A stretch of 47,893 nt of DNA from Nitrospinaceae bacterium (lineage in GTDB: Bacteria > Nitrospinota > Nitrospinia > Nitrospinales > VA-1). The first letter of the stretch is position 1. Each line of letters opens with the position of its first letter. The position numbers and the translations under genes were made by a program. Positions 30,890 through 46,930 of the stretch are shown here, piece by piece. The stretch is taken from NCBI GenBank assembly GCA_023271875.1, contig JALPWY010000009.1, forward strand, positions 1 through 47,893, in the 5' to 3' direction. The notes below the pieces were generated by a model that ran no database searches, was not told where the DNA came from, and saw nothing but the letters and a program-made list of their open reading frames with translations.

Positions 30890-31296
30890 AGTAAATCATT
30901 TCAAATAAATACGATAACGATCCTAAAAACAATCTAGAGAAACCTAAAAAAAGAAAAGGCCATCACCCGCTTTTTTTTAATTTTGATATCCACGTAATGG
31001 TATCAAATGCCTCTGCCTAAATAAAACTTTCATTATTATATAGATCATTATATAGATCATTATATAGATCATTAAATTTTGTAGGTCAATAATGAAACTT
31101 GTATAACACAAACAAGGGATTACGGTAGCCAGTTGTGTTTGCCACACCTAATTTAATTTAACTGTTCTTTTAGGAGTCTAGCTTTACCTATTTCAAGTCA
31201 AACCTTTTTCAAACACTACCTAAAGTGTCAGGCGTAAAAACATTTTGATATCAGCAAAATAGCACTTAAATGTTTGTGTTTTTATGCTTTTCTCTA
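30890..31296. other. Divergent intergenic region between the Ccm operon and mraZ
   Basis: Part of a 594-base gene-free gap. It holds T-rich runs, a three-copy 12-bp tandem repeat (31035-31074) and an isolated AAAGTGT word near 31219. No coding frame or RNA family was recognised. Confidence 0.5.
31035..31074. repeat. 12-bp tandem repeat, three and a third copies
   Basis: Three identical copies of ATTATATAGATC at 31035-31046, 31047-31058 and 31059-31070, then ATTA. Each junction forms GATCATTATATAGATC, which is partly palindromic, so the array could also be a binding site. It lies about 260 bp upstream of the mraZ promoter. Confidence 0.92.
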
Positions 31297-31324
31297 TTGA
31301 CAGGGTGTTCCAATATGCTAGGAT
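31297..31324 (+). promoter_or_regulatory. Sigma70-type promoter of the dcw cluster
   Basis: TTGACA (31297-31302), 16-bp spacer, TAGGAT (31319-31324). The expected start near 31331 gives a leader of about 64 nt to mraZ. The -10 element is overlapped by the MraZ-box array. No second promoter of this quality is seen within the following genes. Confidence 0.65.
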
Positions 31325-31359
31325 TGTGTCAGAAAGTGTCGTAAAGTGTTTGTTAATGT
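31323..31359 (+). promoter_or_regulatory. MraZ-box array (10-bp period)
   Basis: Two exact AAAGTGT words at 31333-31339 and 31343-31349, each followed by three bases, flanked in phase by ATTGTGT (31323-31329) and TTAATGT (31353-31359). Tandem direct repeats at one-turn spacing upstream of mraZ are the known operator type of MraZ. The word AAAGTG(T/G)-N3 is the form reported for Mycoplasma MraZ rather than the TGGGN of E. coli. Position over the -10 and start site points to repression of the cluster by its first product. Confidence 0.65.
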
Positions 31360-31394
31360 TGTTATAGGGCTAATTTGTTGCAATCAATTCGCAT

Positions 31395-31781
31395 ATGAAC
31401 GGATTTTTAGGAACTTATAGCGTCAGTCTTGATGATAAAGGCCGTCTAAATGTGCCAGCAAAATTCAAGGGCCTCCTTGAGAGGGACAGTCCACAATTGG
31501 TTATGTGTGTGATGGATGGGTTTCTCATTGTATTTCCTCAACGCGAATGGGCTGCAAATGAAGAAAAGCTATACCATCTCAATGCATTTGATAAGAGTGA
31601 TCGAAATAGACTTCGGGAGTTCTATGCTCGAGCGACAGAGTGTGAAATGAAATCTGGAAAAATTTTAATTCCTGCCGCTCAACGTGAAGCCGCTGGTTTG
31701 AAAAAAGAAGTGACGCTTGTGGGTATGTCTAAGACTTTTGAGCTTTGGGCTCCGGATCGACTAGAGAAGACATCTAAGTGA
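31395..31781 (+). CDS. mraZ: Transcriptional regulator MraZ
   Basis: 128-aa protein of two AbrB-like swapped-hairpin domains. The first signature is SVSLDDKGRLNVPAKFK (9-25), the second ATECEMKSGKILIPAAQREAAGL. MraZ forms a ring-shaped oligomer that binds direct repeats upstream of its own gene, matching the array at 31323-31359. There is no Shine-Dalgarno before ATG 31395. First gene of the dcw cluster. Confidence 0.96.
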   Translation: MNGFLGTYSVSLDDKGRLNVPAKFKGLLERDSPQLVMCVMDGFLIVFPQREWAANEEKLYHLNAFDKSDRNRLREFYARATECEMKSGKILIPAAQREAAGLKKEVTLVGMSKTFELWAPDRLEKTSK

Positions 31782-31854
31782 GCTAACAGTTCTCAGTTCG
31801 CAGGGTTGATCTAGTGTATGTAACGCGATTGCAAAGAAGACCCTCTTTTTTAAA

Positions 31855-32790
31855 ATGCCTAAGCAACACGAATCAGTATTAGAGAGGGAGGTCATCCAAA
31901 ACCTTAACCTTTTAGGAGGTAGCTTGATCGTCGACGGCACCTTAGGAGATGGTGGGCACGCAGAGTTGTTGTTGAAAAACACAACGAGTGTTCGCGTGTT
32001 AGGGATCGACCGGGATATGCGGGCAATTGAGCGGGCTGAGAAAAGGCTGGCTCCCTTCCGAGACCGAATTACTTTAGTCCACGGAAACTTCGGTGATATT
32101 AAAACTATCTTAAAAAAAGCCAATGTAATGAATGTGGACGGGTTGCTTCTTGATCTAGGTGTTTCTTCCCTTCAGTTGGACTCGCCAGACCGAGGGTTTA
32201 GTTTTATGCGTAATGGGCCTTTGGATATGAGGATGGATTCTTCTCAAAAAATAACAGCCGCTGATCTTTTAATTGAACTACCTGATGAGAAACTAGTGTC
32301 AGTAATCAAGGAATATGGAGAAGAAAGGTTTTCAAAAAAGATCGTGAGAGCCATCCGACAAGCGCAAAAAAAAAGCGCTATTAAGACAACTCTCCAGCTG
32401 TCAAATATTATCTCAAGCGTGATACATGCGTCGCGGCAAACCAAAATTCATCCTGCTACGCGTACATTTCAGGCATTGCGTATTGCAGTTAATGGTGAGC
32501 TAGAGCACATAAAAAAAGCGCTGAGAGATTCTGTCGATATTTTGCAGGAGTCGGCTCGTGTCATAGTGATTTCTTTCCATTCTCTAGAGGATCGAATTGT
32601 GAAGAATTTTTTTAAAACCGAGGAGAAGGGATGTGTTTGCCCTCCCAAAATTCCTGTTTGCTCGTGCGGGCACAAGCAGCGATTAAAAATTATTACACGC
32701 AAACCAATTATTCCAGCGGTTGAAGAAGTGCGACGTAATTCTCGTGCGTCAAGCGCTAAATTAAGGGTGGCGGAAAGAGTCTATGTTTAA
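31855..32790 (+). CDS. rsmH: 16S rRNA m4C1402 methyltransferase RsmH
   Basis: 311-aa SAM-dependent enzyme (older name MraW) that methylates N4 of C1402 in the decoding centre. Seen: HESVLEREVIQNL, the SAM loop VDGTLGDGGHAELLL (28-42), LGIDRD, LLLDLGVSSLQLDSPDRGFSFM and ISFHSLEDRIVKNFF. A CPPKIPVCSCGH cysteine cluster lies near the C-terminus, as is common in the family. The ATG has a T-rich, Shine-Dalgarno-free upstream. The end overlaps ftsL by 8 bp. Confidence 0.96.
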   Translation: MPKQHESVLEREVIQNLNLLGGSLIVDGTLGDGGHAELLLKNTTSVRVLGIDRDMRAIERAEKRLAPFRDRITLVHGNFGDIKTILKKANVMNVDGLLLDLGVSSLQLDSPDRGFSFMRNGPLDMRMDSSQKITAADLLIELPDEKLVSVIKEYGEERFSKKIVRAIRQAQKKSAIKTTLQLSNIISSVIHASRQTKIHPATRTFQALRIAVNGELEHIKKALRDSVDILQESARVIVISFHSLEDRIVKNFFKTEEKGCVCPPKIPVCSCGHKQRLKIITRKPIIPAVEEVRRNSRASSAKLRVAERVYV

Positions 32791-33103
32791 GTGGTTGCCA
32801 AAATCCAAAAAAAATCAATTTCATGTAACCACGCGAGAATATCGTGTGGTTTTGGTAGCTGTTGTAGGATTGATGATAGTGGCTATGGCTTTTGTCTGGA
32901 GCAATGTTCGCTTGGTTGGTCTGGCCTATGAATATCAAGCTCTCGAAAAAATCCAACGAAGCTTGCTTCGCGAAAATAATCTCCTCCATGTGGAGTGGGA
33001 AAGCTTGCGTTCGTTAGATCGTGTTCAACTATTGGCAAAAAATAAAATCGGACTTAGGGAGCCCGAAAGCAGGCAAATTGTAACAGTCTTTTTAAAGAAT
33101 TAA
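32783..33103 (+). CDS. ftsL: Cell division protein FtsL
   Basis: 106-aa bitopic protein: basic N-terminus, one membrane helix (about 23-42), then a periplasmic coiled coil (YQALEKIQRSLLRENNLLHVEWESL) and the ending LLAKNKIGLREPESRQIV. This is the FtsL/DivIC pattern. It joins FtsB and FtsQ to activate the septal FtsW-FtsI synthase. GGAAAGAG precedes the start. It overlaps rsmH by 8 bp and lies 3 bp before ftsI. Confidence 0.88.
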   Translation: MFKWLPKSKKNQFHVTTREYRVVLVAVVGLMIVAMAFVWSNVRLVGLAYEYQALEKIQRSLLRENNLLHVEWESLRSLDRVQLLAKNKIGLREPESRQIVTVFLKN

Positions 33104-33106
33104 GAC

Positions 33107-34858
33107 ATGGGGCGTAATAAAGAAAAAATACCGAGTGTGAGTGTGAGCCGAGGGTCTCTTAAGGCGAGATTGATTTTAGTTTCGGTTCTTTTTGCGTTAT
33201 TCGGTTCAGGGCTTATAGGGAGGTTGTTTTTTCTTCAGGTTGTAAAGCATGAAGACTTGATTTCTCGATCAATGCAACAGCATCAGATGACGGTGAATGT
33301 GAATTACGGGCGTGGTTTTATATACGACCGAAATATGAATGAGTTGGCTGCTAACATTAAAGTTGAGTCTGTGTACGTTACACCACAAGAAATTAAAGAT
33401 AAAAAAAAGACGACTCTGCTATTAGCGAAAGCCTTAAAGATGGATGAAAAGTTAATTTTTAAGAAAATAAGTTCAAGGCGTAGTTTTGTATGGATTAAGC
33501 GTAGGGTTTCTCCTGCAAAAATCGCTCGGTTAAGAAGAGACTCTCCTTCAGGGGTTAATTTTATATCAGAGGACAAACGATTTTTTCCAAAGCGAGAGTT
33601 GGCTTCTGGTGTTATAGGTTTTACTGGAATAGACAACCAGGGCTTAGCTGGCATCGAACACCAATACGATGCAACGTTAAAAGGAAATGTTGTTAAAACG
33701 GTGATGAAAAAAGACGCTCGAGGAAAACTCGTGCAATTTAGTGGGAAGGTTAATGGAGAGGTTACAGAAAACCAAGGTATGATTTTGGCTATTGACGAGG
33801 TGATTCAGTTTTTCGCTGAGCATCATTTGAATAAACAGGTGAAAAAATATCAGGCTAAGTCAGGGGTGGCTATTGTTATGAACCCAAATACAGGTGAGGT
33901 ATATGCGGTTGCCAATATGCCCCAGTATAACCCGAACAATTATTCTGCTTACAATCCTAAAAGGTGGATTAATGGTGCCGTGTCCAACGCGTATGAACCG
34001 GGGTCAATTTTTAAGCCAATTTTAGCTGCCGCTGTCATTGATGCAGGAGTAGCAAGGCCTCATGACATTTTCTTCTGCGAAAATGGAGAATTTGATATTG
34101 GTGGTAAGAAGATTGGGGAAGCCGCTAATCATAAATTTGGATGGTTAACATTGCGGGACGTGATCTCTAAGTCTAGCAATATTGGTTCTATCAAGGTTGC
34201 CCAGCAACTTGGGAAAAGATCTTTTTACAGTTACATTAAAAAATTTGGCTTCGGGCAAAAAACTGGGGTGGCTTTGCCTGGTGAGGCTGCGGGTAGGTTT
34301 AAGGAATTAGCGGCTTGGGATGAAAGGTCTCTAGCTTCTATTTCGTTTGGACACGAAATTAGTGCGACGCCACTTCAAATGATAAGTGCTGTCAGCGCAA
34401 TCGCCAATGGCGGGACTCTTATGGTTCCGCGTGTCACACACGCAATTATAAAAAACGGAAGTGTTACTAAGCGCTTTAAACCAAAGGCTGTTAGGAGAGT
34501 TGTCTCGATTCAAACTAGCAGACAAGTGGTAGAGATTATGAAACATTCTGTTGAAACAGGAACGGGGGGAGAGGCTGCGATTAAAGGCTATGAAGTCGCG
34601 GGGAAAACTGGAACAGCGCAAAAATATGACCGCGAAACGGGAGGTTACTCAACCACAGCTTATGTTTCATCTTTTGTTGGTTTTGTTCCTGCGCACTCTG
34701 CGAAAATAGCTATTTTGGTCATGATTAATGAGCCTAAGGGGGTCCATTGGGGTGGTTCGGTTGCCGCGCCGGTTTTCAAAAATATTGGAAGGGAGACTTT
34801 GCGTTATCTAAACGTACCATCAAATGATCAGCGTGTTTATATTTTGGACCGAGCGTGA
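33107..34858 (+). CDS. ftsI: Septal peptidoglycan transpeptidase FtsI (PBP3)
   Basis: 583-aa class B penicillin-binding protein. One N-terminal helix (about 18-37), pedestal domain starting NYGRGFIYDRN, and the transpeptidase domain with SIFK (Ser300, Lys303), SSN in ISKSSNIGS, and KTGT (500-503). Cross-links septal peptidoglycan with FtsW. No PASTA domains. The stop overlaps a GTG/ATG run that opens the longest murE frame. Confidence 0.96.
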   Translation: MGRNKEKIPSVSVSRGSLKARLILVSVLFALFGSGLIGRLFFLQVVKHEDLISRSMQQHQMTVNVNYGRGFIYDRNMNELAANIKVESVYVTPQEIKDKKKTTLLLAKALKMDEKLIFKKISSRRSFVWIKRRVSPAKIARLRRDSPSGVNFISEDKRFFPKRELASGVIGFTGIDNQGLAGIEHQYDATLKGNVVKTVMKKDARGKLVQFSGKVNGEVTENQGMILAIDEVIQFFAEHHLNKQVKKYQAKSGVAIVMNPNTGEVYAVANMPQYNPNNYSAYNPKRWINGAVSNAYEPGSIFKPILAAAVIDAGVARPHDIFFCENGEFDIGGKKIGEAANHKFGWLTLRDVISKSSNIGSIKVAQQLGKRSFYSYIKKFGFGQKTGVALPGEAAGRFKELAAWDERSLASISFGHEISATPLQMISAVSAIANGGTLMVPRVTHAIIKNGSVTKRFKPKAVRRVVSIQTSRQVVEIMKHSVETGTGGEAAIKGYEVAGKTGTAQKYDRETGGYSTTAYVSSFVGFVPAHSAKIAILVMINEPKGVHWGGSVAAPVFKNIGRETLRYLNVPSNDQRVYILDRA

Positions 34859-34872
34859 TGAGGTGTTTGAGA

Positions 34873-36447
34873 ATGGAGAGCGAGTCTAGTTTCTTTAAAC
34901 CAATTCAAATGGATTTAAGTTTTGCGAAAAATAATATTTATAAAATGAGTAAATTATCAGGTCGAAAACTATCAGCTTTGATTCAAGGATTCCCTGTGAG
35001 AGGTGTCGAGGGAGCGTTGAGTCAGGAAATTTCTTCGATCGCTTTTGACTCTCGTGAGGTTGAAGATGGAGGGCTTTTTGTAGCCATTCGCGGATTTAAG
35101 CAGGATGGTTTTAAGTTTGTCAATGATGCTATCGCTCGCGGAGCGTCAGCGTTTATTACAGAAACACCTATTGAAGAATTATCGAGTTTAAATCTTGATC
35201 GAGGTAAGGTGACAGCGATTTATGTAAAAGATTGTAGAAGTGCTTTAGCTTGGGTTGGGGCAGAATTTTATGGTCGACCATCCGATCGAATGGACGTCTA
35301 TGGTGTCACGGGCACAAATGGAAAAACAACGATCACGTATATTTTAGACTCGATCTATAAGGTTAAAGGGCAGCAGTCAGGAGTAATAGGAACAATTCGC
35401 CACCGCTATGGAGATACGAATCTTGCGGCGTCAACAACCACTCCTGAGTCTTTAGATATCAATCGAATGCTCCATGAAATGACTAGGCGAAAAATTCGTC
35501 AGTGCTTTCTTGAGATTTCGTCTCACTCGCTGGTCCTTAAAAGAGTTTTTGGAATGCATTTCTCCGTTGGTATATTTACTAATTTGAGTCGCGATCACCT
35601 GGACTTTCATAGAACGATAGATAGATATAAGGAAGCAAAGAAAGGGTTGTTTCGTGATAATCAGGTAGAAAAATCCGTGATTAATATTGACGATTCGGTT
35701 GGTCGTGAAATTGCTAACGAATTTTCAAAAAACTTATTGAGTATTGGTATTGAAAAAAAAGCTGATGTGATGGCAGAAGATTGTAGTTTATCCGATGCCG
35801 GCAGTTGCTTTACTCTAAAGACCCCATCTGGTTCCTGTGAAATACAAACTCACTTGTTAGGGATTCACAATATATACAATTTGATATTGGCGGCGGCGGG
35901 AGCACTCCATCAAGGTCTTTCGTTGGACCAGATTGCTAAGGGATTATGTTCCGTTAACCGTATCCCCGGCCGCTTTGAAAAGGTTCCTTGTCGTCAGAAT
36001 TTTTCCATTATTGTTGATTATGCGCATACGGATGACGCGCTTCGTAATGTTCTGCAAGCTGCGAAATCATTTACACCTGGTCGTGTCATCACTGTATTTG
36101 GATGCGGTGGCGACCGTGATCGAGGAAAGCGGAAAACAATGGGTCGTGTAGCAATAGAAGAAAGTGAATTTACTATTGTCACTTCAGATAATCCTCGAAC
36201 AGAAGATCCACAACTTATTGTAGATGACATTCTTGAAGGTATTCCTTCCTCGACGTGTCAGGGTAAAGATTACGAGGTTGTCGTTGATAGAAAAGAGGCG
36301 ATCCAGTTTGCCGTCCGGAAGGCCCAGCCTGGAGATCTAATAATGATAGCAGGTAAAGGGCATGAGGATTACCAAGTTTTAAAAACAGGTGTAATCCACT
36401 TTGACGATCGAGAGGTTGCCCAAGAGGCAGCGAGGGGAGTGTTGTAA
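34873..36447 (+). CDS. murE: UDP-MurNAc-tripeptide synthetase MurE (meso-DAP-adding)
   Basis: Cytoplasmic ligase that adds the third stem residue to UDP-MurNAc-L-Ala-D-Glu. ATP loop GVTGTNGKTTITYIL, central domain FTNLSRDHLDFH with the carbamylated-lysine region, and DNPR (Asp439-Arg442), the motif that selects meso-diaminopimelate, so the wall is of Gram-negative DAP type. ATG 34873 has GAGGTG 7 nt upstream; family length suggests the true start may be the later MSKLSGRK at 34945, and a longer frame begins at 34855. The N-terminal 24 residues are therefore uncertain. Confidence 0.95.
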   Translation: MESESSFFKPIQMDLSFAKNNIYKMSKLSGRKLSALIQGFPVRGVEGALSQEISSIAFDSREVEDGGLFVAIRGFKQDGFKFVNDAIARGASAFITETPIEELSSLNLDRGKVTAIYVKDCRSALAWVGAEFYGRPSDRMDVYGVTGTNGKTTITYILDSIYKVKGQQSGVIGTIRHRYGDTNLAASTTTPESLDINRMLHEMTRRKIRQCFLEISSHSLVLKRVFGMHFSVGIFTNLSRDHLDFHRTIDRYKEAKKGLFRDNQVEKSVINIDDSVGREIANEFSKNLLSIGIEKKADVMAEDCSLSDAGSCFTLKTPSGSCEIQTHLLGIHNIYNLILAAAGALHQGLSLDQIAKGLCSVNRIPGRFEKVPCRQNFSIIVDYAHTDDALRNVLQAAKSFTPGRVITVFGCGGDRDRGKRKTMGRVAIEESEFTIVTSDNPRTEDPQLIVDDILEGIPSSTCQGKDYEVVVDRKEAIQFAVRKAQPGDLIMIAGKGHEDYQVLKTGVIHFDDREVAQEAARGVL

Positions 36448-36448
36448 A

Positions 36449-37837
36449 GTGATTGAAATGAAGGTTGAAGAGTGTTTGAAGGCTATTGGTGGGAAGATTG
36501 TTTCTGGAGTTGCAACAAAAGCTTTCCGAGGTGTGTCTATAGATTCGCGAACCTTAAAAAAAGACGAGCTGTTTGTTTGTATCCGTGGAGATAGGTTGGA
36601 TGGTCATGATTTTATTAAAGAAGCTCAAAATAAAAAAGCGGCTGCGATTATCCTTTCTAATAGAAGCAACGAGGTTTCTAGAAGAGGGGAGGCACCTATA
36701 GTTGTTCGCGTCGATGACACGTTAGAGGCTTTGCAAGAATTAGCTCGTTTTCATAGAGGAGAAATGCCTGTGCGGGTTGTTGGTATAACCGGAACAAATG
36801 GAAAGTCTACAACAAAAGAAATGACAGCCGCGATAACAGAAAAAAGATTTAAAACAATCAAGACAAAAGGAAATCTGAATAATCACATTGGGTTGCCCCT
36901 TAATCTTTTTCATATTTCAAAAGAGGATGAGGTTGCCATTTTAGAAATGGGAATGAGTGCGGCAGGAGAGATTAAGCGTCTTGCGGACATAGCGCAACCG
37001 CAAATTGGTGTGCTTACTAATATTTCTGAGAGTCACTTGGTTCACCTGAAAACATTAAAAAAAGTTCAAGCTGCAAAGGGAGAGCTTTACGACTCGTTAA
37101 GTGAAGATGGGACTGCAATAGTTAATGCTGATGACCCGCTAGTGTTGGAGTTGGCAAGATCTGTTCGAGCCAAAGTGGTTACTTATGGCGTTCATAATGA
37201 AGCTGACGTTAAGGCCGAGAATATCAGTTCGTTGGGTCAGGAAGGATTTAGTTTGAATGTTCGTTTTTTTGAAGAAAATATTCCTATCTGTCTTCCATTT
37301 TTAGGCGAATGTAACATTTATAACGCTCTAGCTGCGATCGCTACGGGTTGTTCATTGGGAATAGCCTCAAGCGATATTCAGGATGGGTTAAGAGACGCTA
37401 AATTGTTATCTCATAGATATGAGGTTGTTAAGCATGAAGGAGCAACGATTATAAACGATTCTTACAATGCAAACCCAAGGTCAATGCAAGAAGCCCTGAA
37501 AACTTTGGCTAGCTATCGATGTGAAGGGCGTCGTTTTTTTGTCGCGGGAGATATGCTTGAGTTAGGGGACCTGGCGGAAGGTGCTCATATGAGGCTTGGG
37601 GTGGACGTCGCGCGATATTCTATTGACTACCTCGTTGTTGTTGGTGATCTCTCTGCCCATGTTGTTAAAAGTGCTGTGGCCTCCGGTTTTAATAAAAAAC
37701 AGACCGCTACTGCTTCGGATCATAAATGCGCAGTGTCATTTTTAAAAAAACACGTCCGCCCCGGAGACTGTCTGCTGGTCAAGGGTTCGCGCGGGGTAAG
37801 AATGGAGGAGGTTGTTGACGGTTTTATTGCTTGCTAA
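36449..37837 (+). CDS. murF: UDP-MurNAc-pentapeptide synthetase MurF
   Basis: Mur ligase that adds D-Ala-D-Ala to UDP-MurNAc-tripeptide. Residue stretches: GVSIDSRTLKKDELFVCIRG, ATP loop GITGTNGKSTTKEM, NLNNHIGLPL, EMGMSAAGEI and NDSYNANPRSM. GTG 36449 is chosen because AGGGGAG lies 9 nt upstream and it starts one base after the murE stop; ATG 36458 is the alternative. Confidence 0.95.
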   Translation: MIEMKVEECLKAIGGKIVSGVATKAFRGVSIDSRTLKKDELFVCIRGDRLDGHDFIKEAQNKKAAAIILSNRSNEVSRRGEAPIVVRVDDTLEALQELARFHRGEMPVRVVGITGTNGKSTTKEMTAAITEKRFKTIKTKGNLNNHIGLPLNLFHISKEDEVAILEMGMSAAGEIKRLADIAQPQIGVLTNISESHLVHLKTLKKVQAAKGELYDSLSEDGTAIVNADDPLVLELARSVRAKVVTYGVHNEADVKAENISSLGQEGFSLNVRFFEENIPICLPFLGECNIYNALAAIATGCSLGIASSDIQDGLRDAKLLSHRYEVVKHEGATIINDSYNANPRSMQEALKTLASYRCEGRRFFVAGDMLELGDLAEGAHMRLGVDVARYSIDYLVVVGDLSAHVVKSAVASGFNKKQTATASDHKCAVSFLKKHVRPGDCLLVKGSRGVRMEEVVDGFIAC

Positions 37838-37869
37838 ATCAAGCACCCATTGAAAGGATTAATTAAATT

Positions 37870-38955
37870 ATGTTGTACCATATTTTTTATCCACTGAGTT
37901 CTGATTATTCATTTCTGAATGTGTTCCGGTACATCACTTTTCGGTCGGCCTATTCTGGTGTCACGGCCTTGATATTCAGTATGCTAATGGGTGGGGTAAT
38001 GATCCGCATGCTTAGAATATTTCAGGTGGGGGAAAAAATCCGAGATGATGGTCCCCAAAGTCACGTTGTCAAGTCTGGAACCCCAACGATGGGCGGGCTT
38101 CTTATTTTGTCGACATTGATTATGTCTACTCTTCTTTGGGCTGACCTAACGAACTCTTATATATGGTTAGCCCTTTTGGCGACTTTAGGATTTGGTCTTG
38201 TGGGATTTATAGACGATGTTATGAAACTAAAAAAGAATAAGGGAATGACAGCGAGAGTAAAGTTAGCGCTGCAAATTTTATTGAGTTTGGCTGTAGGTAT
38301 TTATCTGATTTATTTTGACCCCAGTAGAAGCGAATATGCTACTCATTTATATATTCCTTTTTTTAAGGAGTTTACGCCTGACCTGGGCGCTTGGTATCTC
38401 TTATTGATCGTTGTTACGATTGTGGGTACATCAAATGCAGTGAATCTAACTGATGGCCTCGACGGACTAGCAATCGGTCCTATTATTATAGCTACGATTA
38501 CCTACACTCTAATCCTTTATCTTTGTGGACACTTTAAGTTTGCTGAATACCTTCGCATTCAACATATCAAAGATGCGGGTGAAATAGCTGTGTTTAGTTC
38601 GGCTGTAATAGGTGCCAGCCTAGGATTTCTCTGGTTTAATTCCTATCCGGCTCAAATATTCATGGGAGACGTGGGATCTTTATCTTTAGGTGGACTTCTG
38701 GGGACAATTGCAGTTATAGCCAAACACGAGCTTTTGCTTCTTTTGGTGGGGGGTATTTTTGTAATAGAAGCTCTGTCTGTCATTATCCAGGTGGCCTATT
38801 TTAAATATACCGGTGGAAAACGATTTTTTAAAATGGCACCGCTACATCATCATTTCGAGCATTCAGGTTGGGCAGAACCCAAAGTGATTGTTCGTTTCTG
38901 GATAGTTGCGGTGGTCCTAGCAATGGTCAGCTTAAGTACGTTGAAATTAAGATAA
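37870..38955 (+). CDS. mraY: Phospho-MurNAc-pentapeptide transferase MraY
   Basis: 361-aa membrane enzyme with about ten helices that joins phospho-MurNAc-pentapeptide to undecaprenyl phosphate, making lipid I. Motifs: DDGPQSH (43-49 region) and GTPTMGG, FIDDVMKLKKNKGM with the catalytic Asp pair, NAVNLTDGLDGLA and APLHHHFE. AAAGGA precedes the start. It lies 32 bp after murF and 2 bp before murD. Confidence 0.97.
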   Translation: MLYHIFYPLSSDYSFLNVFRYITFRSAYSGVTALIFSMLMGGVMIRMLRIFQVGEKIRDDGPQSHVVKSGTPTMGGLLILSTLIMSTLLWADLTNSYIWLALLATLGFGLVGFIDDVMKLKKNKGMTARVKLALQILLSLAVGIYLIYFDPSRSEYATHLYIPFFKEFTPDLGAWYLLLIVVTIVGTSNAVNLTDGLDGLAIGPIIIATITYTLILYLCGHFKFAEYLRIQHIKDAGEIAVFSSAVIGASLGFLWFNSYPAQIFMGDVGSLSLGGLLGTIAVIAKHELLLLLVGGIFVIEALSVIIQVAYFKYTGGKRFFKMAPLHHHFEHSGWAEPKVIVRFWIVAVVLAMVSLSTLKLR

Positions 38956-38957
38956 TA

Positions 38958-40292
38958 ATGTTGCTAAAAAATAAAAATATAACAGTGGTCGGCGCTGGAT
39001 GTACTGGAGTTGCAACATCAAACTTTCTAGTTTCCAAGGGGGCCTCCGTTGTTCTTGTTGACATTAAGTCTCGAGTTGAATTAGAAAAAAATCTTCTTTC
39101 ATTATCCCCGAGGGTTCGGACGCTATTTGGGTGTTCTGAGATTCCAGAATCTTCTGATTTGATAGTTCTTAGCCCGGGAGTAAATATTAACGCGTCGTTT
39201 TTAGAGGAATCTCGCAGGCGAGAGATCCAAATTATTAGCGAAATTGAACTAGCTTTTCGTTTTACTAAAACACCTATCATTGCTGTAACCGGCACAAACG
39301 GAAAGTCAACTGTAACAACCCTCATTGGGGATATCTTAAAACAGGCTGGAAAAAAAATCGCAGTTGGTGGGAATTTGGGTACTCCTTTCGTTGCATTACT
39401 TGAGCAAGATCCGGTTGATTATTTTGTCTTGGAAATTTCTACCTTTCAGTTAGAGGGCATTAAAACTTTTCGACCAAACATAGCGGTTATTCTAAATATT
39501 ACTCCGGATCATTTAGACCGACATAAAACCCTTGAGGAATATGCAGACCTTAAGGGGAGTGTTTCTGCTTTTCAAAATGATGGGGATATTCTGGTTCTGA
39601 ATAAAGACGATGAAAATGTAATGAAGCAGGGAAAACGCAGTAAGGCAAAAAAAGTTTTTTTCAGCCTTCGCGGCAAGGTTGATGATGGAGCTTACTTAGA
39701 AGATGGTTCCATGTTTACTTGTTCTGGTGGAAAAGAGAAGCGCATTTTATCAGTTGACGATCTAAAAACAGCGATGCAATTCCAAGCTGAAAACTTATTA
39801 AGTTCAATGGCGGTGGTTACTCTTGTTAATGCTGCTAAATCTGACATTACTAGCGTCGCCATGAAGTTTGAGGGTCTTGATCATCGGGTTGAATGGGTAA
39901 GGACAGTCCGTGGAATAGATTTCGTTAATGATTCAAAAGGAACCAATGTGGGGGCTTTGCAAAAATCTTTAAAGGTTTTTTCTCGCCCCATCATTTTGAT
40001 TGCGGGTGGTAAGGATAAAGGGGGAGATTTTCGAGTTTTAAAAAATCTATTTAAGGAAAAAGTCAAGCACTTGGTTCTTATTGGGGAAACAAAAAATAAA
40101 CTCCGGGAAGTTTTGAATGGTTCCTTTAGTTATGAAGACGCTGAGAGTATGGAAGATGCTGTCGAGCGGTCCATGGAGAAAGCGGCGGCAGGAGATATTG
40201 TGCTGCTTTCGCCAGGATGCTCTAGTTTCGATATGTTTAAAGATTTTATCGAACGAGGAAATCAGTTTAAGGAAATTGTAGGTCGTCTTTGA
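38958..40292 (+). CDS. murD: UDP-MurNAc-L-Ala D-Glu ligase MurD
   Basis: 444-aa Mur ligase adding D-glutamate. N-terminal Rossmann-like VVGAGCTGVATSNFL, ATP loop VTGTNGKSTVTTL, central NITPDHLDRH and C-terminal VNDSKGTNVGALQKSL and LLSPGCSSFDMFKDFIERG. ATG 38958 is chosen because it follows the mraY stop by 2 bp; the open frame to 38868 lies inside mraY. Confidence 0.96.
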   Translation: MLLKNKNITVVGAGCTGVATSNFLVSKGASVVLVDIKSRVELEKNLLSLSPRVRTLFGCSEIPESSDLIVLSPGVNINASFLEESRRREIQIISEIELAFRFTKTPIIAVTGTNGKSTVTTLIGDILKQAGKKIAVGGNLGTPFVALLEQDPVDYFVLEISTFQLEGIKTFRPNIAVILNITPDHLDRHKTLEEYADLKGSVSAFQNDGDILVLNKDDENVMKQGKRSKAKKVFFSLRGKVDDGAYLEDGSMFTCSGGKEKRILSVDDLKTAMQFQAENLLSSMAVVTLVNAAKSDITSVAMKFEGLDHRVEWVRTVRGIDFVNDSKGTNVGALQKSLKVFSRPIILIAGGKDKGGDFRVLKNLFKEKVKHLVLIGETKNKLREVLNGSFSYEDAESMEDAVERSMEKAAAGDIVLLSPGCSSFDMFKDFIERGNQFKEIVGRL

Positions 40293-40397
40293 GTAGGGAT
40301 TTTTAGTTATTTTTAAGTTCGGTAATAAAAGTCTGAATTAGATTTTCTCGGTTTTTGTTTTCTTGCTAAGGCCGATGATTTTGGTTAAGGGTTGGGA
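40293..40397 (+). other. Gap between murD and ftsW
   Basis: 105 bp, the longest gap in the dcw cluster. T-rich; no terminator hairpin and no good promoter pair was recognised. AAGGGTTGGGA at its end serves ftsW as Shine-Dalgarno. Confidence 0.4.
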
Positions 40398-41531
40398 ATG
40401 TATTTTGTGGAGAAAAAGTTGAACCGCTTAAAGTCAAAACCATTCCATTGTGACTCAATACTTCTTGCTACGACCATAATGCTGGTCTTAATTGGGCTTG
40501 TGATGGTGTTTAGTTCTAGCGGGGTATACGCGATGGAAAAATATAACGATGCTTACTATTTTCTAAAACGTCAGGTGGTGTGGGTTGCTCTGGGGGCTAT
40601 GGTAATGCTATCTGCTCGCAAAATGAACTACCGTGAATTAGAAAAATACACCTACTACATCATGGGCGTGGCATTTTTGATGTTAGTAGCAGTGATGATA
40701 CCTGGTTTTGGAAAAGAAGTTGGGGGAGCAAGGCGTTGGTTGGCTATAGGTGGGTTCACTTTTCAGCCATCAGAACTTGCTAAGTTTGCCCTGATACTAT
40801 TCATAGCTAAATCTCTAGTGAAACGGTCCGACCAATTAAAAAACTTTGCCTATGGATACTTACCTAAATTAATCGTTCTCGGTTTTTTCTTCGTGCCCAT
40901 TCTATTTCAACCAGATTTTGGGACCGCAATTACGATATGTGCGGTCACGTTTACAATGCTCATGATAGCGGGATTACGCTCAAAATTTCTAATCTATTCG
41001 ATCTTAGCTGTAGTTCCTCTCTTTGTCATTGCAATTATGAATGCCGAGTATCGCATGCGTAGGATAGTTGCATTTCTTAACCCATGGGAACACGAATCGA
41101 ATGCAGGTTTTCAGGTTGTTCAATCATTTTATGCATTTGGACGTGGGGGGATATTTGGCACTGGAATTGGTAATAGTAGCCAAAAGTTATTTTATCTTCC
41201 AGAAGCGCATACAGATTTTATTTTTTCAGTAATTGGCGAAGAGCTTGGTTTTGTCGGGACCTTGATTCTTATTTTTCTATTTTCAATGTTGATTTGGAGA
41301 GGATTTGTCATTGCTTATCATGCTAAGGATTCTTTTGGAGTTTATGTGGCGATTGGTTTGACTCTTTTAATTGGAATTCAAGCATTCATGAATATGGGAG
41401 TAACTGTAGGTTTGCTTCCAACAAAGGGATTGACGCTTCCTTTTGTCAGCATGGGAGGGTCATCCCTGGTGGTTCTAATGCTTTCAATAGGGGTGTTATT
41501 GAATATCTCAGAAAAACCAATCCAAAATTGA
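40398..41531 (+). CDS. ftsW: Septal peptidoglycan polymerase FtsW
   Basis: 377-aa SEDS-family glycosyltransferase with ten hydrophobic helices that polymerises lipid II at the septum with FtsI. Signature stretches: VMVFSSSGVYA, GGARRWLAIGGFTFQPSELAKFAL, FQPDFGTAI, EAHTDFIFSVIGEELGFVG and GLLPTKGLTLPFVSMGGSSL. ATG 40398 follows a Shine-Dalgarno-like run; an upstream TTG at 40392 adds two residues. Confidence 0.96.
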   Translation: MYFVEKKLNRLKSKPFHCDSILLATTIMLVLIGLVMVFSSSGVYAMEKYNDAYYFLKRQVVWVALGAMVMLSARKMNYRELEKYTYYIMGVAFLMLVAVMIPGFGKEVGGARRWLAIGGFTFQPSELAKFALILFIAKSLVKRSDQLKNFAYGYLPKLIVLGFFFVPILFQPDFGTAITICAVTFTMLMIAGLRSKFLIYSILAVVPLFVIAIMNAEYRMRRIVAFLNPWEHESNAGFQVVQSFYAFGRGGIFGTGIGNSSQKLFYLPEAHTDFIFSVIGEELGFVGTLILIFLFSMLIWRGFVIAYHAKDSFGVYVAIGLTLLIGIQAFMNMGVTVGLLPTKGLTLPFVSMGGSSLVVLMLSIGVLLNISEKPIQN

Positions 41532-41541
41532 CCTGCGGATT

Positions 41542-42690
41542 ATGAAACGAAAAATTGTGATTGCAGGAGGAGGAACTGGAGGGCATTTGTTCCCCGGTAT
41601 AGCACTCGCAAAGGAACTTAAGAGGAATGATATGACGATTGAAATTACATTCATAGGAACTAAACAGGGGATTGAATCGAAGGTTCTTCCTGGGGAAGGG
41701 TTTATGTTGAAAACCATTATATCCTCAGGTTTGTTGGGAAAAAGAGGACTCAATAGGTGGGTTTCTTGGTCCAAACTTCCGATGGGAGCCGCGCAATCAA
41801 TGTTTTTTCTAATTCGTAATCGTCCTAATCTTGTTGTAGGTGTTGGTGGTTACGTCTCTGCTCCGTTGGTTTTTTCAGCCTGGCTTTTACGTATTCCTAT
41901 TCTAATTCATGAGCAAAACGCATTTCCTGGTATGGCTAATAAATGGCTAGGAAAAATTGCCGATAAGGTGGCGGTATCTTATAAAGAATCCAAACAATTT
42001 TTTTTAAATAAAAAGGTGGAAGTGACAGGCAATATGATTCACGAAAAACTTTGCCAAGCGAGAGAAGGGTTTCCTTCTCCTTTAAAACAACCATTCGGGG
42101 TACTGATTCTAGGTGGCAGTCAGGGATCACACTCGATCAACATGGCGATGGTTGAAGCGCTAGACCTTTTATCTGATCGTAAAGAACGACTCCATATTAC
42201 TCACCAGACAGGTGATGCGGATTATGAAATTGTTAAAAAACAATATGCTGCGAAAGGGTTCTCTGCCAATGTTATGTCATTTATCACTGATATGCCTGAG
42301 AGATATCGGTCGGCTTCTATTGTTATATGTCGATCGGGTGCCACAACTCTTGCTGAAATTACAGCCGCTGGAAGAGTGTCTCTTCTTATTCCTTTCCCTT
42401 ACGCAGCTAATAATCATCAAGAGCATAACGCTAGAATTATTGAGGCTGCCGGTGCTGGGGAGGTGATTTTGGACAAAGAAATTTCTGGCGAGCAGATCGC
42501 AAAATCGATTAAAAAAGCGATGGATGAACCAGAGAACCTTCAAAGAATGGAGAACAATAGTTATGGTCTTGGTAGTCGGGATGCAACCGAAAAAGTGCGG
42601 AAGATTTGTTTGGAATTAATGGGCGACGCGAGAAAAGTTTCGGAAGACAATAATGAATCGAAAGAAAAACATGTTTTGTCATGCTTCTAG
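41542..42690 (+). CDS. murG: Lipid II synthase MurG
   Basis: 382-aa peripheral GT-B glycosyltransferase that adds GlcNAc to lipid I on the inner face of the membrane. GGGTGGHLFPGIALAKEL (lipid-side G loop), HEQNAFPGMANKWL, LGGSQGSHSIN, CRSGATTLAEI and FPYAANNHQEHNA (UDP-GlcNAc site). The C-terminus overlaps murC by 10 bp; the last 20 residues are charged and vary from the family. Confidence 0.96.
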   Translation: MKRKIVIAGGGTGGHLFPGIALAKELKRNDMTIEITFIGTKQGIESKVLPGEGFMLKTIISSGLLGKRGLNRWVSWSKLPMGAAQSMFFLIRNRPNLVVGVGGYVSAPLVFSAWLLRIPILIHEQNAFPGMANKWLGKIADKVAVSYKESKQFFLNKKVEVTGNMIHEKLCQAREGFPSPLKQPFGVLILGGSQGSHSINMAMVEALDLLSDRKERLHITHQTGDADYEIVKKQYAAKGFSANVMSFITDMPERYRSASIVICRSGATTLAEITAAGRVSLLIPFPYAANNHQEHNARIIEAAGAGEVILDKEISGEQIAKSIKKAMDEPENLQRMENNSYGLGSRDATEKVRKICLELMGDARKVSEDNNESKEKHVLSCF

Positions 42691-44066
42691 GGAAAACCAA
42701 AAGAATCCATTTTATCGGGATCGGAGGCTCAGGTATGAGTGGAATAGCTGAAGTTCTGATCAATCAGGGTTATGAGGTAAGTGGCTCTGATATGGCTAAA
42801 ACGTCTGTGACGAATCACTTGGAACAGCTTGGCGCTAAGATATCTTTTAATCATGCATCTGAAAATATTGAGGGTTCACAAGTTGTTGTGGTATCTAGCG
42901 CCATAGACCCGAGTAACCCAGAAGTAACCACAGCAAAAGAGAGCATGATACCGGTAATCCCTCGTGCAGAAATGCTTGCTGAACTTATGCGCATGAAGTA
43001 TGGAATTGCTATCGCTGGAACTCATGGAAAAACAACCACAACCTCTCTTGTGTCTACGGTTCTCGCAGGAGGAAAACTTGATCCAACGGTGATTATAGGA
43101 GGACGATTAAAAAATACTGGAAGTCATGCCAAGCTTGGACAAAGCAAATTTTTGGTGGCAGAAGCTGATGAAAGCGATGGGTCGTTTATGCAGCTTTCAC
43201 CCTCTATTGCCGTAGTGACAACGATTGATGAGGAGCACATGGAGTTTTATCAAACGTTGGAAAACATGAAAGAAACTTTTCTTAAATTTATTAACAAAAT
43301 TCCATTTTATGGTTCTGCTGTTTTATGTTTGGATGACCCTAACATACAATCGCTGATTCCAAGGGTGGAAAAAAGATACATCACATATGGGCTTAGTTCC
43401 CAGGCCGATTATACGGCGCGTAACATTTCAATCGAAGGATTAAAAACATATTTTAATGTGTTTCACCATGGAAAAGATTTAGGGCGTATACGTTCGGGAG
43501 CGTTGGGTCAACATAATATTCTTAATACGCTTGCGGCGGTAGCAGTTGGGATGGAGTTGGATCTTGATTTTGAAATAATAGCAAATTCCCTTCTTCAATT
43601 TGAAGGTGTGCAAAGGCGATTCGAAATCGTGAAGCAGTCAGATGAACTGACCCTAATAGATGATTACGGGCATCACCCAGTTGAAATAAAAGCGTCCCTG
43701 AAGACGGTAAAAGAAATCTGGCCTGCCAGCAGGCTAATCGTGATATTTCAGCCTCATAGGTATTCGCGCACCAAATCTCTAATGAAAGATTTCTGGTCTG
43801 CCTTTAATGACGCGGATCACTTGTTTGTAATGGATATATTCTCAGCTGGAGAAAGTCCTTTAGATAAAGTACACGCAAGTACCATCGTTGAGGGAGCGCG
43901 CGAATGCGGGCACAAAAATGCTAAATATTTTAAAAGTCAAAATGATCTAAATAAAGAATTACACAGTCTTGCCAAACATGGTGATGTGCTAATGACGTTG
44001 GGGGCGGGAGATGTGTGGAGGTTGGGTCGAGATTTTCTAGTTGCTAGATTTTCACAAAAAAACTAA
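42681..44066 (+). CDS. murC: UDP-MurNAc L-Ala ligase MurC
   Basis: 461-aa Mur ligase, the first amino-acid-adding step. N-terminal nucleotide fold HFIGIGGSGMSGIAEVL, ATP loop IAGTHGKTTTTSLV, EADESDGSF, TTIDEEHMEFY, DDYGHHPVEIKASL and FQPHRYSRTKSL. The overlap of 10 bp with murG suggests translational coupling. Confidence 0.97.
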   Translation: MLLGKTKRIHFIGIGGSGMSGIAEVLINQGYEVSGSDMAKTSVTNHLEQLGAKISFNHASENIEGSQVVVVSSAIDPSNPEVTTAKESMIPVIPRAEMLAELMRMKYGIAIAGTHGKTTTTSLVSTVLAGGKLDPTVIIGGRLKNTGSHAKLGQSKFLVAEADESDGSFMQLSPSIAVVTTIDEEHMEFYQTLENMKETFLKFINKIPFYGSAVLCLDDPNIQSLIPRVEKRYITYGLSSQADYTARNISIEGLKTYFNVFHHGKDLGRIRSGALGQHNILNTLAAVAVGMELDLDFEIIANSLLQFEGVQRRFEIVKQSDELTLIDDYGHHPVEIKASLKTVKEIWPASRLIVIFQPHRYSRTKSLMKDFWSAFNDADHLFVMDIFSAGESPLDKVHASTIVEGARECGHKNAKYFKSQNDLNKELHSLAKHGDVLMTLGAGDVWRLGRDFLVARFSQKN

Positions 44067-44094
44067 TTATTAATTAAGGGAGGAGTTTGTTCTT

Positions 44095-45144
44095 ATGCTG
44101 AGCGGACCTTGGAAGCAAAAATTGATACGCTACGCAAACACTGGAACTGATTATAAACTTCCCATGAGGAATAGTATGGATTCACCCAGAACTATTCTGG
44201 GGAGAAAAATCACACAGAGAAAAAATATGAATCTTTCTTTTTCTTTTCAAAACAAGATCAAAGGTGAAGTTCTGTATGACGAAATGATGTCAAAGTACAC
44301 TTCAATGCGAATTGGGGGGCCTGCAGATGTTTTCGTTTTGCCTGCTAACTTGAGAGACCTGCAAATAATTTTAAAGCACCGTGGAAGTTGCCCCATATGG
44401 ACAATTGGGGAGGGGACTAATCTTCTTGTTCGAGATCGAGGTATACGGGGAATTGTGATCGCATTAAAAAATTGTTTTAAATCAATAAGACGACCGGTAT
44501 TTTACAAAACCTCAGATGGTCAAGAAAGAGCCGTCGTTCAAGTAGATGGCGGAGTGAAATTATCCTACTTGGCTAAATTTGTAGCACGTTATGGTCTCAC
44601 AGGTTTTGAAAAATTTGTTGGGATTCCAGGATCTGTTGGTGGTTCTGTCGCAATGAATGCTGGGGCGGAGGGTGCTGAAATTAGTCAGGTTCTCCGCAGT
44701 ATAAAAGTTATGACTCTTGATGGGGAAATAAGAACATATAGCAAAAGCGAGATGGTGTTTGCTTATCGGAAAACTACGTTCCCATCAAAAGACGGAATAG
44801 TAATTGAAGCCGAGATAGATCTAGAAAAGGGGAAAATTTCTGACATTCACCGGGAAATGGATAAATATTTGTCACGGCGAGGCTTAACGCAGCCACTGAC
44901 TATGCCAAACTCTGGTTCGATTTTTAAAAACCCAGATGGTGAAAAAGCTGGGCGTCTAATTGAATCCGCTGGGTTAAAAGGTTGTCGAATCGGAGGGGCT
45001 AGCGTGTCGATTAAGCATGCCAATTTTATAGTAAATAAAGGAGGTGCGTTAGCAGAAGATGTGATTAGACTGATCAAACATATTCAAGTTGTGGTTGAAG
45101 AAAAAACCGGTGTCAAATTAGAGCAGGAAATTATAGTTATTTGA
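44095..45144 (+). CDS. murB: UDP-MurNAc dehydrogenase MurB, with N-terminal extension
   Basis: 349-aa FAD/NADPH enoylpyruvate reductase making UDP-MurNAc. FAD-binding YTSMRIGGPADVFVLP, GEGTNLLVRDRG, VGIPGSVGGSVAMNAGAEG, and the proton-donor serine in NSGSIFKNPDG. The Tyr loop insert of type I enzymes appears absent, giving a type II enzyme. GGGAGGAG 9 nt before ATG 44095 argues for this start, which leaves about 45 residues of basic, unassigned sequence before the domain; ATGs at 44164 and 44227 are shorter options. Confidence 0.95.
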   Translation: MLSGPWKQKLIRYANTGTDYKLPMRNSMDSPRTILGRKITQRKNMNLSFSFQNKIKGEVLYDEMMSKYTSMRIGGPADVFVLPANLRDLQIILKHRGSCPIWTIGEGTNLLVRDRGIRGIVIALKNCFKSIRRPVFYKTSDGQERAVVQVDGGVKLSYLAKFVARYGLTGFEKFVGIPGSVGGSVAMNAGAEGAEISQVLRSIKVMTLDGEIRTYSKSEMVFAYRKTTFPSKDGIVIEAEIDLEKGKISDIHREMDKYLSRRGLTQPLTMPNSGSIFKNPDGEKAGRLIESAGLKGCRIGGASVSIKHANFIVNKGGALAEDVIRLIKHIQVVVEEKTGVKLEQEIIVI

Positions 45145-45163
45145 TTATATTGACAACCATTCG

Positions 45164-46084
45164 ATGAAATTAGAAAAAAAAAAAATTGGGGTTTTGATGG
45201 GAGGTTTGTCTCCTGAGCGAGAGGTTTCTCTTGCTTCAGGTAATGCGGTATTAGAGGCGTTAGAAAGAAAAGGTTTGAATGGGATAGGAATTGATGTGAG
45301 TAACAATATTGCCTTTTCGCTAGAGAAAAATAAAATTGATATCGCTTGTATAGCTCTTCATGGGATTTATGGAGAGGACGGTTCTATTCAAGGTTTACTC
45401 GAATACGCAAAAATACCTTATACCGGTTCGGGTGTTTTAGCTAGTGCGTTAGCTTATGACAAGGTGAAGTCTAAAGAAATTTTCAAATTTAATAAAATTT
45501 CCACGGCTGACTATCAGGTTTTATGTCGGAGAGAAAGGGGAAAACAGGAGCGTATATTGGATTTTCCAGTTGTTGTAAAGCCTTCGAATCAGGGATCAAG
45601 CATCGGAATCAGTATTGTGAGAGAAGAAAAAGAGTGGGAGGCAGCTTTAGAGTTAGCTTTCAGTTATGCAAAAGAAATTCTGGTTGAGAAATATATTGAA
45701 GGTAAGTTGCTAGCTATTGGAATGAATGGAGAAGAACCCATGCCCATCGTACATATTCGGCCTAAGTCCGGATTTTACGATTACGAATCTAAATATACTA
45801 GTGGGAGAACAGAATATGACTGCCCTGCTGAACTTAGAATAGAAGAAACGCAACGTTGTAAAGACATAGCCGTTGAAGTCTATCGTGCTTTGCGAGGAAA
45901 TGGAATGCCTCGGGTTGATGTGATACTGGACACTGAGGGAGTGCCGTATGTGCTTGAAATGAATACTATCCCTGGTTTGACGCCGACAAGTCTTTTGCCG
46001 ATGGCGGCAAAAGAATCTGGATTGGAATTTGATGATTTGGTACTTGAGATTTTAAAATCGGTCCATCTTGATTATGAAGGGTGA
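45164..46084 (+). CDS. ddl: D-alanine-D-alanine ligase Ddl
   Basis: 306-aa ATP-grasp enzyme making the D-Ala-D-Ala used by MurF. GGLSPEREVSLASG, ALHGIYGEDGSIQGLLEY, YTGSGVLASALAYDK, FPVVVKPSNQGSSIGIS and RVDVILD...VLEMNTIPGLTPTSLLP with the metal ligands. The Tyr-containing loop of the D-Ala type is YDYESKY. It lies 19 bp after murB and 9 bp before ftsQ. No clear Shine-Dalgarno. Confidence 0.96.
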   Translation: MKLEKKKIGVLMGGLSPEREVSLASGNAVLEALERKGLNGIGIDVSNNIAFSLEKNKIDIACIALHGIYGEDGSIQGLLEYAKIPYTGSGVLASALAYDKVKSKEIFKFNKISTADYQVLCRRERGKQERILDFPVVVKPSNQGSSIGISIVREEKEWEAALELAFSYAKEILVEKYIEGKLLAIGMNGEEPMPIVHIRPKSGFYDYESKYTSGRTEYDCPAELRIEETQRCKDIAVEVYRALRGNGMPRVDVILDTEGVPYVLEMNTIPGLTPTSLLPMAAKESGLEFDDLVLEILKSVHLDYEG

Positions 46085-46093
46085 AATACTAAT

Positions 46094-46891
46094 ATGGGTT
46101 TAGCTTTACGGGAAGAAAGTAGTTTTGATTTAGGTTCTGTCTTTCTAACCCTGATTACTGGGTTGGCAAAGATGATTCTGGTGGTTGCATGTTCCTATGG
46201 AATTTTCTCAAGCTATAGATTTATAACTCAGTCACCTCGCTTTAATATTAATGAAATAAACCTGGTTGGTCATCAACGATTGTCAAACGAAGAGTTAAGT
46301 CCATGGATTGGAAGCATAATTGGAAAGAATATTTTTCAGTTGGAACTTGATGGGATTTCTAAAAGGCTGGTTGAGCATCCGTGGATACAATCGGCTTCAG
46401 CGAGAAGAGTTTTCCCTCAAGGTATTTATGTTGAAATTAAGGAAAGGACCCCTTTTGCTAAACTTCAAATGGAACAGATTTACGCAATAGATAATTATGG
46501 AATTTTACTTGGGACAGATTTAAGAGGTGCAAACAAACTACCCACTATAACGGGTATTAAAACGAAAAATCCTAAAATAGGAATTAATGTGGCTGACGAA
46601 GAAATTATTCGTAGTTTGAAAATGATGTACAGTCTCAACCAGTTATCCATATTCGAAAAAAATCCAATCGATAATGTGCATATTAGCAGCAGGTATAGAA
46701 TTACTTTTTCTACACATACCCAAGATGTCAAGGTTCACATGCGTCCAGAAATAGCACAGGAAAGTTTTAAAAATCTAGTACTAGCATTAGGTGCTATAGA
46801 AAAAAATGAGAAGGATTTCAGCTACATTGATCTGTCTTTTGAAAATAGAGTTGTTGTAAAACACCGTGGTGAAGTTAAGAGAGAGTTCTGA
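46094..46891 (+). CDS. ftsQ: Cell division protein FtsQ
   Basis: 265-aa bitopic protein: short cytoplasmic N-terminus, one helix (about 17-39), a POTRA domain (FNINEINLVGHQRLSNEELSPWI ... ERTPFAKL) and the FtsQ beta domain with YAIDNYGILLGTD. It links FtsL/FtsB to the early divisome. 39 bp separate it from ftsA. Confidence 0.92.
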   Translation: MGLALREESSFDLGSVFLTLITGLAKMILVVACSYGIFSSYRFITQSPRFNINEINLVGHQRLSNEELSPWIGSIIGKNIFQLELDGISKRLVEHPWIQSASARRVFPQGIYVEIKERTPFAKLQMEQIYAIDNYGILLGTDLRGANKLPTITGIKTKNPKIGINVADEEIIRSLKMMYSLNQLSIFEKNPIDNVHISSRYRITFSTHTQDVKVHMRPEIAQESFKNLVLALGAIEKNEKDFSYIDLSFENRVVVKHRGEVKREF

Positions 46892-46930
46892 AAAAATAAA
46901 AAGACATAAACCTGGGAAGGGAGAGGACGT

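Follow-up and report, generated by a model that had tools for sequence, protein, structure and literature searches.

The repeat array at the dcw promoter of the Nitrospinaceae genome analysed here is very probably a conserved MraZ operator which, judged by its sequence, is ordinary in kind and follows a general bacterial arrangement. We consider it highly probable that MraZ acts through this array on the dcw promoter, in negative autoregulation of the dcw cluster. Three features appear to be new: the continuation of the repeat series into the spacer between the -35 and -10 hexamers, a single distal box further upstream, and an MraZ protein that has apparently lost its second DxxxR motif. The host belongs to the Nitrospinaceae (phylum Nitrospinota) and is a relative of marine nitrite-oxidising bacteria. 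The window, by which we mean the whole stretch of 47,893 nt analysed, comes from an assembly of 1,868,996 bases (1.87 Mb) that is 61% complete.

The mraZ gene (31395-31781, forward strand) starts with the ATG at 31395 and encodes 128 aa with a PF02381 match (E 1.7e-21). It is followed by the rest of the dcw cluster on the same strand (31855-47893), in the order mraW, ftsL, ftsI, murE, murF, mraY, murD, ftsW, murG, murC, murB, ddl, ftsQ and ftsA, the last of which runs off the window end. All of these genes are co-directional. The ftsL call is weak (20.9 bits against a cut-off of 22.9), and where several mur or fts genes fall into one Pfam family their presumed names follow gene order and the usual arrangement of the cluster. 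Taken with unrefined starts, the listed ORFs are separated by -88 to 99 bp across the cluster, which is presumably transcribed as one unit. On its other side mraZ has ccmE as divergent neighbour, and ccmF follows further out in the orientation of ccmE. The gap between ccmE and mraZ also contains a perfect 12-bp tandem repeat, ATTATATAGATC, in 3.3 copies (31035-31074).

Upstream of mraZ, a -35 hexamer TTGACA (31297-31302) and a -10 hexamer TAGGAT (31319-31324) form a sigma-70-like match on the forward strand with a 16-bp spacer, and a TG at 31316-31317 provides an extended -10 (TGC-TAGGAT). This pair is the tied best of 33 sigma-70-like matches in 31000-47893, a number that is no excess over the 36.0 expected by chance, and it is the sole TG-extended pair among the three top-scoring ones. 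If the predicted promoter is in use, transcription would start near 31331. Four boxes at exact 10-bp steps (31323-31359, forward strand) lie over the -10 and the predicted start: ATTGTGT (31323-31329), which overlaps the -10, two exact copies of AAAGTGT (31333-31339 and 31343-31349) and the degenerate TTAATGT (31353-31359). Their TG dinucleotides are at offsets 31, 41, 51 and 61 from TTGACA. A preliminary description of this DNA had reported the two exact words 10 bp apart, degenerate copies in phase on either side, and an overlap with the -10 and start region of the promoter, all of which the coordinates confirm. The window thus holds at least three direct repeats with a GTG core at 10-bp steps, placed over and just after the predicted promoter of mraZ, the first dcw gene, as in MraZ operators. 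The phased series also extends upstream over the spacer, where AGGGTGT (31302-31308, TG at offset 10) overlaps the final base of the -35 and AATATGC (31312-31318, TG at offset 20) shares its TG with the extended -10; an 11-bp step then leads to the four boxes. Both spacer boxes are on the forward strand.

The word AAAGTGT alone is not rare, as it occurs 12 times in the window against 9.0 expected. The exact pair AAAGTGT-N3-AAAGTGT (AAAGTGTNNNAAAGTGT) occurs once in the 1,868,996 bases of the assembly, at mraZ. When up to two mismatches were allowed, the pair pattern gave 27 matches in the window's genome and its reversed control gave 23, and degenerate pairs alone therefore carry no meaning. 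Within the 200 bp preceding the window's mraZ, the highest-scoring 3-box array matches at 19 of 21 positions, a score that none of 300 dinucleotide shuffles attained. Across 77 genomes, the 3-box pattern, with one mismatch allowed, gave 48 matches in 41 genomes, compared to 11 for the reversed control. Coordinates place 44 of these 48 at mraZ, one at a contig end (G033:C36) and three elsewhere (G063:C112, G017:C41 and G025:C41); the window's own genome has the pattern at mraZ only. For AAAGTGK-N3-AAAGTGK the 77 genomes contained 30 matches, no more than the 38 of its reversed control, so that two boxes with G or T at base 7 are unsafe as a genome-wide signature, and three boxes are a better one. 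The pair search at the one-mismatch level gave no support for a wider MraZ regulon in the window's genome. The search returned a single second site (G000:C29:19638), which overlaps a coding frame of the opposite strand at its 3′ end. A three-box AAAGTGG site in another genome (G010:C210) is located among the listed frames.

In order to assess conservation we collected 66 mraZ upstream regions, drawing on PF02381 matches in 51 of 60 genomes (the window's included) and in 15 of another 17 from the phylum. An array passed at the 99% level if no more than 3 of 300 dinucleotide shuffles attained its best 3-box score. Such an array is found upstream of the orthologous mraZ in 60 of the 66 genomes. 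The six genomes failing this test are G008, G011, G013, G019, G023 and G055, two of which fail wholly, with 279 and 252 of 300 shuffles reaching their score. The preliminary description had suggested a search for the words in related genomes and regarded their absence from close relatives as evidence against it. As the words at 10-bp steps are present in all seven scorable members of the genus (g1) and through the phylum, this objection does not arise, although the close kinship of the seven genus members lessens their weight as evidence. An alignment anchored on TTGACA showed this hexamer upstream of mraZ in 64 of 66 genomes. In 54 promoters of families f1-f4, anchored in the same way, TG is found at offsets 10, 20, 31, 41, 51 and 61 in 43, 54, 42, 42, 42 and 36 cases, respectively, and a minority have the downstream boxes one base off (offsets 30, 40, 50 and 60). 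TG conservation at offset 20 cannot be told apart from conservation of the extended -10. Since the TG positions run from offset 10 onward, the array that was noticed first is the downstream part of a series starting at the -35. Identity per column in five genera is 0.88-0.93 over promoter and array, compared to 0.54-0.71 further upstream. In family f9 (L114, L115 and L119), GGTGGTATATTTACACC was seen by eye near the -10; it has the look of an inverted repeat (GGTG...CACC) and is perhaps the site of a second regulator.

The window's MraZ matches PF02381 with 76.4 bits (cut-off 23) in two stretches, i.e. with both repeats, and reaches 91.7 bits with TIGR00242, below the cut-off of 98.35. Its closest named relatives are encoded on Nitrospinaceae/Nitrospina MAG contigs, the best being 98% identical. 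The first DxxxR motif is intact (DDKGR), and all 66 Nitrospinota genomes retain its D and R. The second motif, which reads KS-GK (residues 86-89, encoded at 31650-31661), is degenerate and lacks one residue, in keeping with the TIGR00242 score just under the cut-off. This motif is likewise absent, as KS-GK or like forms, in 58 of 65 scorable Nitrospinota genomes, 57 of which are one residue shorter. It is present in six genomes of f9, in one of f7, and in E. coli, Mycoplasma genitalium and M. pneumoniae, and is intact in the remaining outside comparison proteins except that of Microbacterium, whose frame is garbled past the middle. The loss of a motif that is part of the family signature counts against reading the array as an MraZ operator. 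An AlphaFold2 model of the monomer has a pLDDT of 91, and its 16 PDB matches with E ≤ 0.001 are all MraZ (query TM-score 0.74-0.86). Among the best are the M. genitalium entries 9sz7 and 9r4j, whose titles mention “MraZ in complex with 4 box promoter” and “its promoter”, respectively. Based on fold, Pfam match and gene context, we assign the protein to the MraZ family despite the loss of the second motif. MraZ relatives were also found in 14 records of a phage collection (MT835696, MT835527, OR846610, OR847157 and others), which are probably pieces of bacterial chromosomes.

The form of the box differs between Nitrospinota families, with GTGGG repeats in f9, AAAGTGGTCG in f7 and mainly GTGT in f1-f6 and f8. 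After 15 of 198 boxes were dropped for want of a TG core, f1-f6 and f8 had T at base 7 in 158 of their 165 boxes, while all 18 boxes of f7 and f9 had G. A coupling between loss of the second DxxxR and T at base 7 holds inside Nitrospinota, but we do not claim it as strict, since Burkholderia, Neisseria and Monoglobus have T in some boxes and an intact second motif. The same combination is reported for mycoplasmas. On the number of independent changes, two trees of 45 tips including one distant outgroup differ. In the MraW tree, f5, f6, f7, f8 and f9 share one clade in which f7 and f9 are separate; MraW and MraZ together joined f7 and f9, and this second tree includes the protein under test.

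Outside the phylum we examined 17 mraZ upstream regions, namely E. coli and 16 records picked from 31. In 13 of the 17, no more than 3 of 300 single-base shuffles attained the score of the 3-box array; in Listeria and Proteus 6 of 300 shuffles reached the array score, and the alphaproteobacteria Tistrella and Shinella were without a 3-box array. The region upstream of mraZ in E. coli K-12 reads TCAGTGG-gaa-ATTGTGG-ggc-AAAGTGG-gaa-TAAGGGG, in the same frame of 7+3, and Burkholderia stagnalis (L179) has AAAGTGG, ACAGTGT, AAAGTGT and TTTGTGT. Fisunov 2016 and Eraso 2014 are said to be the original papers on the MraZ operator words. The preliminary description had called the word Mycoplasma-type, in contrast to a TGGGN form of E. 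coli, and had pointed to its presence in a Gram-negative-type cluster. Its AAAGTGT at a 10-bp step does match the Mollicutes words AAAGTG[T/G] and (AAAGTGKN3)3 given in PMC8475190 and PMC5282649, but the word is not exclusive to Mollicutes, since Burkholderia, Neisseria and Monoglobus also have AAAGTGT ahead of their mraZ. Nor is it foreign to E. coli-type clusters. The contrast to E. coli fails on the AAAGTGG in the same 10-bp frame, GTGT and GTGGG do not divide Mycoplasma from E. coli as both occur inside Nitrospinota, and B. stagnalis has AAAGTGT in a Gram-negative. A Mycoplasma-like or transferred operator was rejected: the whole phylum has the array and the word occurs elsewhere. For B. 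cenocepacia, PMC7761207 describes four repeats of 7 nt, separated by 3 nt, that follow the -10 and extend over the dcw start site. It states that MraZ binds and regulates this promoter region, and calls the GTG repeat through which they were found common to B. subtilis, E. coli and mycoplasmas.

Thus, the window shares with the Mycoplasma operator the word, the 10-bp step, the place at the mraZ promoter and the MraZ fold. It differs in its full dcw cluster of a walled cell, in boxes that reach into the -35/-10 spacer, in the distal box and in the missing second DxxxR, which M. genitalium and M. pneumoniae keep. As in E. coli K-12, direct 10-bp repeats around a GTG core lie in the interval from promoter to mraZ, and AAAGTGG is among the E. 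coli boxes; base 7, however, is G (GTGG) in E. coli and T in the window, and the E. coli array abuts the gene whereas that of the window ends 35 bp before the ATG. The Burkholderia operator likewise covers the start site with four 7-nt repeats spaced by 3 nt and includes AAAGTGT in a Gram-negative, but its boxes mix GTGG and GTGT and its MraZ has the second DxxxR intact. Operators of family f9 (L114-L119) are upstream of the same gene in the same phylum and have 10-bp repeats, but combine GTGGG boxes with an intact second motif (DNQGR), as in E. coli. The “Mycoplasma word” is then one setting of a general MraZ box. As GTGT and GTGGG occur in one phylum, beside MraZ with or without the second DxxxR, Nitrospinota constitute a natural test set for assigning each half of the box to the half of MraZ that reads it. 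A literature search, whose coverage left out most subscription papers and all bioRxiv preprints, returned nothing on a Nitrospinota MraZ operator among the matches listed.

The position of the boxes over the predicted -10 and start region fits autorepression of the cluster, as the preliminary description had proposed. MraZ, the product of the first gene and presumably the protein binding the boxes, would occupy successive 7-bp boxes with a GTG core, which follow each other at one helical turn on the same side of the DNA between about -10 and about +28, and would there compete with RNA polymerase for the promoter. With mraZ at the head of the run that continues from mraW to ftsA, this would result in negative autoregulation of MraZ together with the downstream division and wall genes. 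We infer that binding represses rather than activates. The sign does not follow from the box position, because MraZ is described as an activator in mycoplasmas (as stated in PMC7761207), and boxes are also found in the -35/-10 spacer, where activators can act. An MraZ that activates, or switches between activation and repression, from the same operator nevertheless seems improbable to us: the majority of the boxes cover the -10 or follow it, a location classically associated with repression, the annotated role of E. coli MraZ is that of a repressor, and loss of mraZ in M. genitalium raised the transcripts of mraW, MG_223 and ftsZ by log2 3.0, 2.1 and 2.3 according to PMC8475190. The TG periodicity might also be a property of the promoter itself (extended -10 and initial transcribed region) that involves no regulator, and the TG at offset 20, being the extended -10, would be conserved anyway. 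We give this explanation hardly any credence, since the 10-bp periodicity of 7-bp words runs 35 bp past the -10 and the same words, which within the phylum are almost confined to mraZ, recur at this gene in other phyla.

Besides the array assigned above to MraZ, a single box AAAGTGT followed by CA (AAAGTGTCA) lies further upstream at 31222-31228 on the forward strand. It stands out by its conservation, and its role as an MraZ site is putative. The distance to the first array box is 101 bp in the window and ∼98-100 bp across genus g1. AAGTGTCA, found in 7 of 7 scorable genus members, ranks first in conservation among the 216 windows of 8 columns that precede the promoter. Counterparts in the same orientation upstream of mraZ are seen in L019, L009, L025, L026 and others. 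In genus g6 they lie 164-165 bp before the array in all six genomes with enough sequence, three as AAAGTGTC and three with GGTGTC, although other upstream blocks are more conserved there. Three of three g10 genomes have a counterpart at 168 bp, which is the top window of 210 in these three sequences, and one of five g7 genomes has it at 166 bp. No distal box was found in 15 genomes of g8, two of which have short upstream sequence. In 65 genomes (G072 left out), AAGTGTC occurs 35-250 bp upstream of the array 15 times in forward orientation (14 genomes) and never reversed, compared to a mean of 0.5 and a maximum of 3 in single-base shuffles of the same stretch; the 15 occurrences are not independent events, because relatives share ancestry. 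For this distal word only, another reading is that it is no MraZ box but the -35 hexamer (NTGACACTTT, minus strand) of a divergent ccmE promoter. Its reverse complement contains TGACA, and a divergent ccmE-like gene is present in the window and, by ORF likeness, in L009, L019, L051 and L026, the loci read that far. This reading is unlikely in our view, as no -10 is found at 15-19 bp (mean best match 3.0/6 compared to 2.94 at random positions) and the conservation takes in the AA of AAGTGTC, beyond the hexamer.

If the distal word is an MraZ box, we may tentatively suggest, with considerable doubt, that most Nitrospinota combine a one-motif MraZ with a two-part operator. The second DxxxR would have been lost with a change from GTGGG to GTGTC, and the conserved single box 100 bp (g1) or ∼165 bp (g6, g10 and one g7) upstream could let one MraZ ring hold both sites, looping or wrapping the DNA between ccmE and mraZ. 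The distal box raises the question of whether MraZ can work by looping. Strongly conserved blocks are also present ∼78-95 bp before the array in g6 (CCTGTTTTAATAAAA) and g8 (AAAAAGTTAGCC), and perhaps represent the divergent ccmE promoter.
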